From IMG/VR virus record IMGVR_UViG_3300032073_000034, positions 1-58,053 of that record: 58,053 nucleotides of DNA; one strand, 5' to 3'. A program made the position numbers and the translations under genes. The stretch is from a virus. Shown piece after piece: positions 35,506 to 51,933 of the stretch (position 1 is the first letter of the stretch; the number at the start of each line of letters is the position of its first letter). Below the pieces are notes generated by a model, which saw only the letters and a list, made by a program, of their open reading frames with translations, ran no database searches and had not been told where the DNA came from.

Positions 35506-35825
35506 TCCCATCCCAGGTTCTCAGTCTCCACTTTACCCCAGCATGAGCCTTTTGTCATAGCAAGGAATGGTGTATAGCAACCGCAACCCATCTTTTTATT
35601 CCATAATGGGCGGCACTGTCGTAGATCTTTATTATATATTGGGCATTTCATACAGGTACGCAATCGCGTACGCCATCTTTTCCTACCCACTCCTAGCATG
35701 AAACCCTTATGCAGCATCTTAAATAGAGGGAGGATTCCATTTGCACCACCCTCAAGTTTGACGATGGCCCACCATTCTCGGAACCTAGAAGGCTTTAAGC
35801 CCAGTATCTTCATGCTGTACGGCAT
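35502..35825 (-). CDS. Cys-rich conserved-looking phage protein
   Basis: 107 aa from an ATG at 35825 preceded by AAGGG. The C-terminal half has CMKCPIYNKDLRQCRP and GCGCYTPF plus a further Cys-Trp, a zinc-binding pattern I have seen in small phage proteins of unknown role. The frame could be extended to a TTG at 35852. On the minus strand that TTG is also a perfect TTGACA followed after 17 nt by TAGTAT; if that is a promoter, the start would have to be the ATG at 35813. Confidence 0.6.
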   Translation of the reverse strand: MPYSMKILGLKPSRFREWWAIVKLEGGANGILPLFKMLHKGFMLGVGRKRWRTRLRTCMKCPIYNKDLRQCRPLWNKKMGCGCYTPFLAMTKGSCWGKVETENLGWE

Positions 35826-35938
35826 ACTACCCTTAAAGTACATGAATGTCAAGTATATACATAAAGGGGTTAATATATTTCAGATTCTTGGAAACTAGAG
35901 AAACGGTATATATATACTGATATCACATCGCGTGCGTT

Positions 35939-35958
35939 CCCCCCTCCCCCCGCCCCCC
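35939..35958 (-). repeat. G6-C-G6-A-G6 tract (G-quadruplex candidate)
   Basis: Plus strand is C6 T C6 G C6; the minus strand is three G6 runs separated by single bases. Splitting one run gives the four G-tracts needed for a quadruplex. Very unlike the AT-rich surroundings. Confidence 0.65.
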
Positions 35959-35960
35959 AA

Positions 35961-35982
35961 CTATACAAGTGCAGTTGTATAG
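35961..35982. repeat. Perfect 8-bp inverted repeat
   Basis: CTATACAA, 6-nt spacer GTGCAG, TTGTATAG. It ends one base before the first ATGACAGCC box. It could be an operator for a dimeric repressor or an RNA hairpin. Confidence 0.7.
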
Positions 35983-35983
35983 C

Positions 35984-36024
35984 ATGACAGCCGTAAACCC
36001 TTGAATGACAGCCAGTTGCTAGGT
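35984..36024 (+). promoter_or_regulatory. Control element copy A: paired ATGACAGCC boxes
   Basis: ATGACAGCC at 35984-35992 and again at 36005-36013, exactly 21 nt apart (two helical turns). The second box continues as AGTTGCTAGGT, 22 nt of near identity with copy B at 37900-37921. The layout fits tandem sites for a DNA-binding activator placed on one face of the helix upstream of a promoter. Confidence 0.65.
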
Positions 36025-36062
36025 TGAATTTCGATTGTCGAATTTCACTGAGTCATTGGATG

Positions 36063-36100
36063 TCACCTCTCCAACCGCTCGGAACTACACTCAGAGGTGA
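36063..36100 (+). promoter_or_regulatory. Leader stem-loop touching the ribosome site
   Basis: TCACCTCT pairs perfectly with AGAGGTGA over a 22-nt loop; the strong site AGGAGG of the 134-aa gene starts immediately after the stem. The left arm CACCTCTCC could alternatively pair with GGAGG, so a translational switch is possible. Confidence 0.45.
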
Positions 36101-36115
36101 AGGAGGAAATGCAAA

Positions 36116-36520
36116 ATGCAAAACCCATTCGCAAACGATAACACCCATCCGCAAGAAAAGACCAACATCGCTCCTCTCCTTACAGGAGATAAGTTAATCA
36201 CCCTGCTAGCAAAGCTAGCTGAGAAGGGATTGATGGAGTGGGACGCTGAGCGTAGCTTAGCAATGGTTGCAAAGCGTGTGTTAACACAGATAGCAGGAAG
36301 CACTGAGGAAGCTCAAGGACTTCGTGGTTGGCTTTCAAGCCAAGGCTTCAGAGGTTCTCGTAGAAGCCGTAGCTTCTACCTTTCTCTCGGCGACTTGGAA
36401 AGTCGTGGCGTTACCATCACCGATGGTAAACCACAAGTTTGTGAACCAAAGGTTCAACAGGCTAAAGGTCGTAGCAAAGCTACGCTGAACTTTTCCGACA
36501 TCATGGGGCTTACTGAGTAA
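36116..36520 (+). CDS. Unknown 134-aa protein with private terminator
   Basis: Begins MQNPFANDNTHPQEKTNI; residues 25-75 are helical (KLITLLAKLAEKGLMEWD), with Arg/Ser/Gly-rich SQGFRGSRRSRSFYL near 80-92 and a basic then acidic C-terminus. Strong ribosome site AGGAGG. The gene is flanked by control element A and its own UUCG terminator, so it is a single-gene unit that is probably highly expressed. The DNA contains several internal inverted words, but no family is recognised. It could be an RNA- or DNA-binding protein. Confidence 0.65.
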   Translation: MQNPFANDNTHPQEKTNIAPLLTGDKLITLLAKLAEKGLMEWDAERSLAMVAKRVLTQIAGSTEEAQGLRGWLSSQGFRGSRRSRSFYLSLGDLESRGVTITDGKPQVCEPKVQQAKGRSKATLNFSDIMGLTE

Positions 36521-36531
36521 GCCTTATATTG

Positions 36532-36565
36532 GGGTAGCCCTTCGGGGCTACCCTACCTTTTTTTT
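36532..36565 (+). terminator. Strong intrinsic terminator with UUCG loop
   Basis: GGGTAGCCC, TTCG, GGGCTACCC: nine perfect GC-rich base pairs with a UUCG loop, then TACC and an eight-T tract. Placed 12 nt after the stop of the 134-aa gene. Confidence 0.93.
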
Positions 36566-36603
36566 CTTTTCGTTCAACAACAACAACATAGGAGGATATA
36601 TAT

Positions 36604-37212
36604 ATGTCTATCGACACAGCAGTATCAGCAACATCAACAATACAAACACCATCCAATATGGATGATGCAGATTGGAGTCACTTTCGTAAGCTCGACAAGT
36701 TAGAGCTTGATTGGTCGCCTCGTTCCATCTTGGATCATCTCAAGATTAGCCCTAACACTGTCCGTAGGATATTGGGCTACTCCGAGACCAAGGTGGCTAA
36801 TGCTGAAAGGCATCTTCGTTATAAGTCCTCAACTTATAAGCCACAACCTTGCAGTTATGTTGTCCGTCCCATAAGGGAGGATGAGATAAATGGTGAGGAT
36901 GTTAGGATGAAAGTGGTTGACTACTATGATGGTAACAGGGTTAAGCCTGGCTATAAGCCATCACCACTAAAGGTAGACCGAGGTGGTTTAGGTTATGAGG
37001 ATGCCTTCTACGAAGCAGTAGGTTTAGGAGGTGACAAACATAGATTTCCAATCGTTGATGTTGAACAGGGTAATGATGATGAAGTTGCCACTATGTCTTA
37101 CGAACATAAGACAGGTGGTGCAATAAGCTTCATCAAGAAAGCAGTAGCCAAGATGACTCGCCGTAAGAACTACGGAACTTGCTTGTCTACTATCAGTCCT
37201 TACAGATCGTAA
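36604..37212 (+). CDS. HTH-containing protein of unknown role
   Basis: 202 aa, very good ribosome site (AGGAGG). Residues 36-66 (LDWSPRSILDHLKISPNTVR) look like a helix-turn-helix; the middle is mixed (VVRPIREDEING, VVDYYDGNRVKPGYKP), and the C-terminus is basic (AVAKMTRRKNYG). It ends directly at the first long structured RNA region and may be cotranscribed with it. A regulator or RNA/DNA-binding partner of this locus is possible. Confidence 0.55.
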   Translation: MSIDTAVSATSTIQTPSNMDDADWSHFRKLDKLELDWSPRSILDHLKISPNTVRRILGYSETKVANAERHLRYKSSTYKPQPCSYVVRPIREDEINGEDVRMKVVDYYDGNRVKPGYKPSPLKVDRGGLGYEDAFYEAVGLGGDKHRFPIVDVEQGNDDEVATMSYEHKTGGAISFIKKAVAKMTRRKNYGTCLSTISPYRS

Positions 37213-37861
37213 GGCTGAACCGACCCACTTGGGGGTCGTTAAACATACCAAGACACTTTTCAGGATGGTAGTATGGCTACTATGCTTCGCCAAAAGCATG
37301 GAGAAATCCAAGTTATGAGGTTAGGAAGATTGACCACGGCATCCATATGGATGACTAGGTTGGCTTACTCATGGTAACCCTATCTATGGGGTTTGATACC
37401 GAGGCTGAGTCTCATGTCGTTGATTATTCAGTCGGGCTTTAGATGCATAGATTATCTTGTAATACAAGGTGTCGGTCTCTCCTTCATGAGAGGCATAGGA
37501 ATCCCAAGTATAGATGAACGATCTATTGAGGCTTATCACCTTTCTATACTCCAAGATCAGGCATAGGGGATAACAGCATCGTGGTTTACCAGTCGGTGCT
37601 ATCGGTTCACCAACTATTGTGAGGTGCTAAGTTGCATACAATATCAGCAAGCCAATAACGGGGACAACATTTATACGGAGGGTTGTCATGCAGTATAGCG
37701 GTAGGAGGCTATACTATTATTTACCTTTGAACAACGATATATATCACGCTGCAGATGGTCACTATATCGGGGTCAGTTTGGTAGTTGGGGGTTAGTGACG
37801 GCTAACCTAGACTGCCTTAACTCTCGGTGTTAGAGAGGCTGACCTGTTCATACCTTTTTTT
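37213..37861 (+). ncRNA. Candidate large structured RNA 1
   Basis: About 650 nt with no convincing gene. Helices seen include CGACCC/GGGTCG (37221-37238), ATGCTT/AAGCAT (37282-37299), nested CTCA-GGTA-ACCC closing at 37409, an 8-bp AGTATAGA/TCTATACT pair (37507-37550) and AGTATAGC/GCTATACT (37692-37715). The 3' domain (37771-37844) nests four helices: GGTCAG/CTGACC, GGTAG/CTGCC, GGTTAG/CTAACC and CTCTC/GAGAG, followed by T7 at 37855-37861, a plausible 3' end. Such size and complexity recalls GOLLD/ROOL-type phage RNAs, but no sequence match is claimed. Confidence 0.6.
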
Positions 37862-37880
37862 ATTTACATTTTCAAAGAAA

Positions 37881-37921
37881 ATGACAGCCGAGAATTGGCG
37901 AATGACAGCCAGTTGGTAGGT
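37881..37921 (+). promoter_or_regulatory. Control element copy B: paired ATGACAGCC boxes
   Basis: ATGACAGCC at 37881-37889 and 37902-37910, again exactly 21 nt apart, the second continuing AGTTGGTAGGT (one mismatch to copy A). About 20 nt beyond the last T of RNA 1. Downstream, TTGATT-N16-TATTAT (about 37930-37957) is a possible core promoter for the second unit. Confidence 0.65.
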
Positions 37922-38006
37922 CGAGCAGTTGATTTGCTGTTTCACTTGTGTATTATATTTATAAAATCAATGGATGCTTCCGCATCCATGTGTTGGAGGA
38001 ACTGCT

Positions 38007-38114
38007 ATGAAGATAAAGATACGGAAGCCTATATTGTTTACCAAGTCTAGACCATTCAAGGTTAAGGCTAAGGTGTTGCATCGTAAGATGAAATACAAGG
38101 AGAGGCTAGCTTGA
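38007..38114 (+). CDS. 35-residue very basic peptide
   Basis: MKIKIRKPILFTKSRPFKVK, then AKVLHRKMKYKERLA: thirteen Lys/Arg and a single Glu. GGAGGA lies 6 nt before the ATG. It is the only good reading frame between control element B and RNA 2 and would be the first gene of that transcript. A cationic RNA-binding or membrane-active peptide fits; too short for family assignment. Confidence 0.6.
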   Translation: MKIKIRKPILFTKSRPFKVKAKVLHRKMKYKERLA

Positions 38115-38700
38115 TAGGGCAAGCAAATAATCCCTAACAATTTACTTTTGATGGATTGATCATCCATCATGGGACGCTAGTAGAAGTCACAACCTTAGTG
38201 ACACTAGCACTCATGTCCGAGTGATGCTCGGGGTCAACGGCTAAGTAGCTGAGGCTAGGTGAAGGAACACCGATGTAGGGTAACGCCTACCATGAGGTAC
38301 TGATCTGACAATCCTATAAACTGAACTATAGGTATGTCTCCTGCAGGTGAGGGATCAAACCCAAGTCCTGTCGATGTCGCATAATAATGGACTTAGGAAC
38401 ATAGTGCGAACAAGGTCTGCATTGTTGCAGGTTCAACGAGCAAGTGCTTGAGAACGGGGTAACGCCTACCAAGTTGCGGAGATATCATGTCGTTAACTAA
38501 GGATCAGTTGGGAGAAGGCTGAAGAGTAATCTCCCCCCACCCATTTTACTTTAGCCGTGTGGCAAGTTCGTTGTAAAAAGAACTAGAATGATGAGTTGGT
38601 AGAACCGAACGCTCTGCAAGAAAATCTACCATGAAATAGTGCGAATAATAGGGTAACGACCTTGAGGCCAATCATCCACGGCTATCATTTTCACCACAAT
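38115..38700 (+). ncRNA. Candidate large structured RNA 2
   Basis: About 580 nt without genes. Helices: GCTAGT...GTCAC/GTGAC...ACTAGC (38176-38208), CACTC/GAGTG, GGTG/CACC, GTAGG/CCTAC, CCTATA/TATAGG (38313-38332), CTGCA/TGCAG, GGGAGA/TCTCCC (about 38510-38535). A closed 3' domain is held by TAGCCGTG (38552-38559) with CACGGCTA (38677-38684), enclosing AGTTC/GAACT and GGTAGA/TCTACC. The 15-mer GGGTAACGCCTACCA occurs twice (38278, 38457), and GGGTAACG a third time (38651). It could be a separate RNA or a very long structured leader of the 93-aa gene at 38715. Confidence 0.55.
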
Positions 38701-38714
38701 AAACAAGGAGGAAC

Positions 38715-38996
38715 ATGATGAATGACGATACACTAAAACAAGCGGTAAGAATGAAGCAAGGCATTGAATGCCTTAGCATAAGAGATCTCAATAAGTTAGT
38801 AGGTGCTTATATAGTAGGCACTCAACCTAGCTATATAGCTAGGTCTGCTATCAGGGATGTCGCTAAAGAGGAGTTCGTCAAGGAGTACGGAAAGGCTCAG
38901 CTATCTTGGGTAGATAAAGCTGAGCAGTACTGCCAAGATACGGAAGCCAACTTCATCCTGGAGTCATTGCATGGCGACAGGATAGAGCGTTTATAA
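38715..38996 (+). CDS. Small hypothetical protein
   Basis: 93 aa with an excellent AAGGAGG site. Helical and charged (KQAVRMKQGIECLSIRDLNK; WVDKAEQYCQDTEANFILES). First gene after RNA 2. Ends in tandem TAA TAA stops, 10 nt before a pseudoknot. No family recognised. Confidence 0.65.
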   Translation: MMNDDTLKQAVRMKQGIECLSIRDLNKLVGAYIVGTQPSYIARSAIRDVAKEEFVKEYGKAQLSWVDKAEQYCQDTEANFILESLHGDRIERL

Positions 38997-39005
38997 TAAC
39001 CCATA

Positions 39006-39036
39006 AGTCTGACGGGGCAGACTATAAACAACCCCG
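39006..39036 (+). promoter_or_regulatory. H-type pseudoknot
   Basis: AGTCTG (39006-39011) pairs with CAGACT (39018-39023); the loop CGGGG (39013-39017) pairs with CCCCG (39032-39036), joined by the A-rich linker ATAAACAA. This is a compact classical pseudoknot, the fold used by preQ1-I riboswitches and frameshift elements, in an intergenic gap 42 nt before the next gene. Function not known. Confidence 0.55.
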
Positions 39037-39078
39037 ACTATTTCTAATCAAGTATAACAAAACAACACGGAGGATAAT

Positions 39079-39450
39079 ATGTTAAAATCAAAACCATTCG
39101 CAGGGCTTAAGGCAGGCAAGGATACAGAGGGTCAAACCTTTTTCAAGTTCGATGCCGACCATAAGCCTAAGCAGTTTAAGCCAAGGCGTAAGCGTAACAA
39201 ACCAAGGTTTGCTTTCGTGCTTCAGGCTTTCGATGGTGAGAAATGGAAGGTGATCCGCAAAGATGGATTGCTTATTCACTCCAAGTCATGCAAGGAGGTA
39301 CGGACTAAGGAGTTTGTTAAGTGTCTACAGGACGGAGGGTTTGTAGCTCAGATGAAGATACAAGTATTCGGTAAGCGTAGTATAACTGACAAGGAATTCT
39401 TTTCAACCCCCGTCAGATGGAGGAGTATTGATGCCGTATCAGTCGTCTGA
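39079..39450 (+). CDS. Hypothetical basic protein
   Basis: 123 aa; GGAGGATAAT precedes the ATG. Basic N-terminal half (PKQFKPRRKRNKPRF) and beta-rich C-terminal half (AFVLQAFDGEKWKVIRKDG). No family recognised; the basic segment suggests nucleic-acid contact. Followed by a stable hairpin. Confidence 0.6.
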   Translation: MLKSKPFAGLKAGKDTEGQTFFKFDADHKPKQFKPRRKRNKPRFAFVLQAFDGEKWKVIRKDGLLIHSKSCKEVRTKEFVKCLQDGGFVAQMKIQVFGKRSITDKEFFSTPVRWRSIDAVSVV

Positions 39451-51568: not shown

Positions 51569-51933
51569 CTTTTGCGTAATGAGTCAGGGGCATAAGAACA
51601 AGTACGACTGACACGGGATGTGTTCCTCCGAACAGATATTGCATCCTAGAAGGGATAAAGCTTTGTCAGAAGCCCAACCTGCTTGATGCCTTTGGCTTTG
51701 TAGCAACATGACAAGGGGGTTTTGATTTGACCTCCCTCCTCTCCTCTTATTGGGGGGAGAGGAAAACTTTTTAAGACTCCGCTAGCCCCTTGGAGGTGGA
51801 CAGCGTGGTTCAGTGCTGTGAAAGGATATACCAGCCGCTCGGTGAGTAGACCATAAGCGATCCAAGTTGGGGGATCTCATATGAAAGATGAACGACTCAA
51901 CTACCAATCAGTACATAACACCATGACATAACT
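51569..51933. other. Gene-free structured stretch after the recombinase
   Basis: 365 nt without a reading frame of interest. Left part to about 51735 contains several short inverted words; then the stem 51738-51762 with T5; then CAGC/GCTG and GATCC/GGATC hairpins (about 51804-51874). Could be a small RNA, the recombinase target region (attP), or both. No tRNA-like end was found. Confidence 0.5.
51738..51772 (+). terminator. Terminator-like hairpin
   Basis: CCTCTCCTC pairs with GGGGAGAGG (nine pairs, one U-G) over a 7-nt loop, followed by AAAAC and T5. Likely 3' end for the long rightward operon or for an RNA made from the preceding stretch. Confidence 0.6.

Follow-up and report, generated by a model that had tools for sequence, protein, structure and literature searches.

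Large structured RNAs of phages

Few classes of very large structured RNA are known from phages. Two of these, GOLLD and ROOL, are often found near tRNA islands and build RNA-only cages; their functions are open (PMC12286853). GOLLD occurs in phages and prophages and also in marine metagenomes, and its 3' region is conserved, the 5' region less so (PMC12286853). The ROOL RNA env-120 is 659 nt long and has an elaborate fold (PMC12286853). OLE, a structured RNA of about 600 nt with highly conserved segments, works within a ribonucleoprotein complex and comes from Gram-positive bacteria that are extremophilic or anaerobic (PMC9723947).

Here we describe ncA, a candidate large structured RNA in the IMG/VR virus record IMGVR_UViG_3300032073_000034 (58,053 bases; this whole stretch of DNA is the window). 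The record carries phage genes: terminase, portal-like protein, DnaB helicase, exonuclease, and integrase. Like GOLLD, ncA belongs to a phage and is large and structured, and a comparison with a distant relative (domain Z, below) suggests a conserved 3' and a less conserved 5' region. However, ncA does not match the GOLLD covariance model, and it has 649 nt while GOLLD often exceeds 800. Also, tRNA genes are often near GOLLD, but ARAGORN found no tRNA in the window (proximity to tRNAs is no absolute requirement). ROOL is a phage RNA of about 600–660 nt, which is the size of ncA if its predicted ends are right. But the ROOL covariance model is unmatched, and there is no tRNA island here. OLE is similarly large, but its covariance model does not match ncA either. 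So although ncA resembles GOLLD and ROOL in size, setting, and elaboration, it should not be placed under either; our best reading is that it would be kin to them in kind, in a family related to neither.

We lean modestly toward ncA being a new family of large structural RNA, encoded by phages on the + strand and acting as a scaffold in trans. A preliminary description of this DNA had raised the possibility of a new class. The structured RNA that it described stands and has no match in Rfam, and the proposed family is based on three sequences (those of the window, L002, and G002), which come from one phage lineage and two of which are nearly identical.

The locus and its relatives

About 1.5 kb, almost devoid of coding sequence, separates an HTH-like gene (36604-37212) from a 93-codon gene (38715-38996). 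The preliminary description had treated 37213-37861 as the whole object. The structured RNA held up but its extent did not: a second structured stretch, ncB, lies at 38115-38700. The two are separated by a repeat that resembles an operator, a promoter-like site, and a basic ORF of 35 codons (Table 1).

We compared the locus with L002, which is one contig that is about 97% identical (96.7%) over the region, and with G002 (contig 3300047669_001621), which was reached via a terminase search. G002 is more distant: its terminase is 77% identical to that of the window, and its DnaB is 53% identical. Two other relatives, G001 and L043, share neighboring genes, and both end short of the RNA's position. 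In G001, a short ORF seems to occupy the ~140 nt behind the HTH gene, which are unlike ncA.

Table 1. Features of the locus, with positions in the window.
Feature	Positions	Strand	Comment
Upstream gene, weak HTH match	36604-37212	+	Stop codon abuts ncA; encoded protein kept in G001
ncA, large structured RNA candidate	37213-37861	+	No conserved frame; covariation with L002 and G002; no Rfam match
Possible end-closing helix, 5' half (GGcUGAAC)	37213-37220	+	From MFE structure of whole stretch
Module M, first copy	37397-37436	+	Local alignment; common to ncB and (weakly) G002
Helix Hm1	37454-37470	+	T-A pair replaced by C-G in L002; also re-formed in G002
Helix H0	37475-37494	+	Re-formed in G002 with other letters
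Helix H1, AGTATAGA/TCTATACT	37507-37550	+	G002: ACTGCGAC/GTCGtCAGT
Helix H2, GCATCG/CGGTGC	37576-37599	+	G002: CACTAT/ATAGTG
Hypervariable stretch	37602-37655	+	Largely replaced in L002 and G002
Helix H3, GACAAC/GTTGTC	37663-37687	+	G002: GGTAAC/GTTACC
Helix H4, AGTATAGC/GCTATACT	37692-37715	+	G002: CGTTGC/GCAACG
Nested 3' domain	37771-37844	+	z -4.02; three double changes in L002
Possible end-closing helix, 3' half (GUUCAuaCC)	37846-37854	+	From MFE structure of whole stretch
T7 run, probable 3' end	37855-37861	+	One of 4 runs of at least 6 T, 34-52 kb
44-nt direct repeat, operator- or promoter-like	37881-37924	+	Other copy 35984-36027; upstream of ORF35 and ncB
Sigma-70-like promoter, TTGATT-N16-TATTAT	37929-37956	+	Consensus match only, 9/12
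ORF35, very basic 35-aa peptide (MKIKIRKPILFTKSRPFKVKAKVLHRKMKYKERLA)	38007-38114	+	GGAGG site; zero changes in L002
ncB, second non-coding structured stretch	38115-38700	+	z -2.46; L002 substitutions avoid centroid pairs
Module M, second copy	38467-38512	+	Local alignment
Domain Z, ~130 nt, multi-helix	38552-38684	+	Closed by TAGCCGTG/CACGGCTA; also ends G002 RNA

Coding potential and folding

The longest open runs in ncA are 80 amino acids on the minus strand and 62 on the plus strand. This is the level of shuffled sequence (mean 77) and agrees with the earlier claim that there is no convincing reading frame. A 57-codon ORF is present at 37393-37566, but its frame is not kept in G002, and of its three changes in L002, two affect second codon positions and one a third position. 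The translations of the window and G002 look alike over just one stretch, which is ~37 nt long and is flanked by +1 and -1 indels. Period-3 conservation of a protein, which the preliminary description had named as evidence against an RNA, is absent from the relatives of ncA that we compared.

ncA as a whole has an MFE of -209.3 kcal/mol, versus -185.8 for shuffled sequences (z -3.69; 0 of 20 shuffles were as good), and for its last domain, 0 of 200 shuffles were as good. In sliding folds of 150 nt, the mean z was -0.65 to -1.6 for the phage's coding sequence and -1.35 for ncA; these energies do not separate ncA from the coding DNA. Because the coding DNA also folds somewhat better than shuffles, folding energy alone is no proof: it is weak evidence in this genome, and covariation decides.

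The nested helices that had been described in the last 74 nt, and the run of T after them, are located as described. In the nested domain, the outer helix pairs GGTCAG (37771-37776) with CTGACC (37839-37844), and the inner helices are GGTAGT/ACTGCC with the hairpin GGTTAG/CTAACC, and CTCT/AGAG. At least two of the other long T runs on the + strand at 34–52 kb follow obvious terminator hairpins, while the T7 run follows a large multibranched domain without a classical terminator hairpin. A possible end-closing helix, absent from the preliminary description, would pair the nucleotides directly after the HTH stop codon with those just before the T run; its 5' half is invariant in L002, so its covariation support is nil. 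We found no recognizable promoter directly upstream of ncA.

Compensatory changes in ncA

Across ncA, 37 aligned positions differ between the window and L002, besides indels, and this per-base rate is above that of the genes just upstream. Given the MFE structure of the window alone, five pairs have changed on both sides and are still paired. If the same substitutions are placed randomly, the mean is 0.28 two-sided changes, with a maximum of 3 in 2,000 trials; this null ignores the clustering of substitutions, so p-values from it are approximate. Six pairs are broken, versus 13.8 expected. The clearest case is in the 3' hairpin, where GGTTAG/CTAACC becomes GACTAG/CTAGTC and GGTAGT/ACTGCC becomes GGTAA/TTACC. 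The one-sided changes exchange A-U and G-U pairs on the + strand; hence the predicted RNA very probably belongs to the + strand. For the 5' half of ncA and the nested 3' domain, the comparison with L002 is the one source of support.

In G002, the counterpart of the HTH gene is followed by a single non-coding stretch of 760 nt. Its middle aligns with the core of ncA (37513-37570, 81%), and the 3' part of ncB (38542-38684, 85%) matches its end. Six ncA helices (Hm1 and H0–H4) are re-formed in G002 with other letters, at homologous places that are anchored by invariant segments. The combined p-value is 2e-7 or 5e-8 (versus shuffles or random windows), which is somewhat optimistic because the helix registers were picked by eye. 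By hand count, ~22 pairs differ from G002 on both sides. H1 encloses the invariant loop GAACGAT..TGAGGCTTATCACCT. Energy alone gives no preference for H1 in the window, and in G002 its register is shifted by one base relative to the MAFFT alignment and includes a one-base bulge. When the 5' halves of the ncA and G002 stretches were aligned with regard to structure, no convincing homology emerged, and we looked for a counterpart of the nested 3' domain in G002 and saw none.

The letters between the helices hardly vary between the window and G002 (GAACGAT, TGAGGCTTATCACCT, AGGCATAGGGGA, and TTATACGG). A combination of free helices and fixed loops is the hallmark of a structured RNA. What these comparisons show is an array of predicted hairpins whose letters are free and whose pairing is kept, with nearly invariant loops between. 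Compensatory changes, which the preliminary description had proposed to look for, are present in comparisons to both L002 and G002, and the reading of 37213-37861 as a structured RNA is supported.

ncB and domain Z

For ncB, 1 of 100 shuffles folded as well. One pair in its centroid structure is broken in L002, versus 5.9 expected (p = 0.003, with few substitutions). Domain Z is almost invariant over ~100 positions, even though the phage proteins that we compared are only 53–77% identical. The exception is one varying hairpin, which covaries in two pairs. A formal covariation test on Z, which has little variation, was non-significant (72 of 500 shuffles scored as high), and the putative helices of Z rest on conservation and complementarity. 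Module M occurs in ncA, in ncB, and ahead of the G002 core (p about 0.02–0.045, uncorrected for several comparisons).

Between 38272 and 38664, ncB contains GGGTAACG three times and ATAGTGCGAA twice, which suggests an internal duplication. The second copy of GGGTAACG is altered in L002.

The core of ncA and Z lie in one stretch in G002 but ~830 nt apart in the window, with the promoter-like site and the ORF between them. Judging from this one relative, in which they share one stretch, ncA and ncB may act jointly.

The main rival to a trans-acting RNA is a pair of cis-acting untranslated regions: ncA would be the 3' UTR of the HTH mRNA, and Z would be a leader or riboswitch-like regulator of the next gene. 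The non-coding stretch begins at the HTH stop codon in both the window and G002, and Z ends 12–25 nt before the next gene in both. A compact and near-invariant domain such as Z would also fit a ligand-binding leader. However, ncA ends in a T run, and ~650 nt of kept structure far exceeds the needs of known leaders or terminators. Furthermore, the genes after Z look unrelated by eye (93 codons in the window and 65 in G002). The rival is weakened because these genes are apparently unrelated, and we consider it unlikely, though far from negligible.

Searches for homologs

We searched Rfam with the window at the gathering score, and with 35800-39100 and G002 at relaxed E-values, and found nothing credible. 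(A match to the sodium riboswitch falls inside a gene, with E = 0.24.) This agrees with the earlier impression that the sequence has no recognizable consensus of a known RNA. Searches with blastn for the RNA in phage and plasmid records, and with tblastn for four neighboring genes in phages, gave zero matches. Of the loci that we collected, the window, L002, and G002 are the only ones in which models R1 and R2 detect the RNA.

Several candidates were rejected. The pattern GGGTAACGCCTACCAWG occurs in ten unrelated virus contigs, without support from R1 or R2. A pattern derived from Z has eight matches in genome contigs, at least five of them from Pseudomonas, which score at the noise level with R1. 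GGGGTAACGCCTACCAAG resembles a 16S rRNA hairpin and GGGGATAACAG resembles 23S rRNA, but the former is changed in L002 and the latter in G002.

We also considered that ncA might be a ribozyme, a self-splicing RNA, or another mobile RNA element that lies between genes by chance. Catalysis is frequent among large structured RNAs with invariant loops, and the hypervariable stretch acts like a free peripheral insertion. But the intron and ribozyme families in Rfam are unmatched (no group I or II intron model matched the window, 35800-39100, or G002), ncA interrupts no gene, and we did not recognize a homing endonuclease or reverse transcriptase among the adjacent genes that we scanned. This seems quite improbable.

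A site that acts as DNA in replication or packaging, with a single strand that forms conserved hairpins, could also have paired changes, and ncA is near a C-rich divergent region that might be an origin. However, the one-sided changes that were kept give G-U pairs on the + strand, which DNA hairpins do not favor, and usual single-strand sites are much shorter than ncA; we think a DNA element very improbable. Finally, chance folding or a decayed gene is scarcely credible: folding energies are slightly low genome-wide, genes included, and the 57-codon ORF is present, but its frame is not kept (see above) and the compensatory changes are far above the null, provided that the alignment of the relatives is right.

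A possible role for ncA and ncB

If ncA is a trans-acting structural RNA, as we favor, then it would be transcribed from the + strand along with the rightward genes, and would be either the last part of the transcript of the HTH gene or an RNA that starts near 37213. It would end at the T7 run, and its two ends would pair with each other. ncB would be transcribed from a promoter behind the 44-nt repeat. Both would be stable RNA scaffolds in trans, with or without small basic phage proteins; the ORF35 peptide is a possible RNA-binding partner. That they are scaffolds rather than catalysts is a guess, by analogy to GOLLD and ROOL.

The core of ncA and Z may belong to one particle, built from a joined RNA in G002 and from two molecules in the window's phage. 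We tentatively extend this to a bipartite RNA machine, which we regard as a long shot worth stating: ncA and ncB would be the halves of a particle that meet in trans and are joined in G002 (~760 nt), with Z as the conserved functional center and the hairpin array as the scaffold. If so, then this class of large ornate RNA would be made from two separately controlled transcripts with a common operator-like repeat. A class as large as GOLLD and ROOL but unrelated to them, with joined and two-part forms, would also give a smaller working center (the near-invariant domain) to study. More broadly, ncA indicates that unexplored virus lineages still harbor unseen large RNAs, and its covariation-supported structure is a basis for examining RNA-only assembly.

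Other elements near the locus

Each copy of the 44-nt repeat carries ATGACAGCC twice, 21 nt apart. The upstream copy precedes the gene at 36116-36520 and the downstream copy precedes the ORF35/ncB unit. The repeat probably serves both as an operator or activator site. The number of sigma-70-like consensus matches is no higher than chance.

The gene at 36116-36520 has a near-invariant SQGFRGSRRSRS motif and is kept in four of four relatives. It has no match in Pfam, PHROGs, or the phage records that we searched, and a search of bacterial genomes with its protein did not find a prophage relative. Just upstream, 35870-35983 lies between divergent genes and contains TATATATATA, the long C tract TTCCCCCCTCCCCCCGCCCCCC, and the palindrome CTATACAAGTGCAGTTGTATAG. 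This region is alike in G001 and partly alike in G002, and its appearance suggests an origin or a master control region.

Behind the integrase, a gap of ~365 nt (51569-51933) has long helices, but its z is only -1.55, and it has zero matches in Rfam. At 39003-39046, ahead of the gene at 39079, a hairpin (AGTCTG/CAGACT) has a CGGGG loop that is complementary to a downstream CCCCG, and may form a pseudoknot-like element. In G002, the homolog of the 39079 gene is preceded by a non-coding element of ~150 nt (locus L039, 5324-5502, minus strand), which is closed by GAGGGGTG/CACCCCTC.
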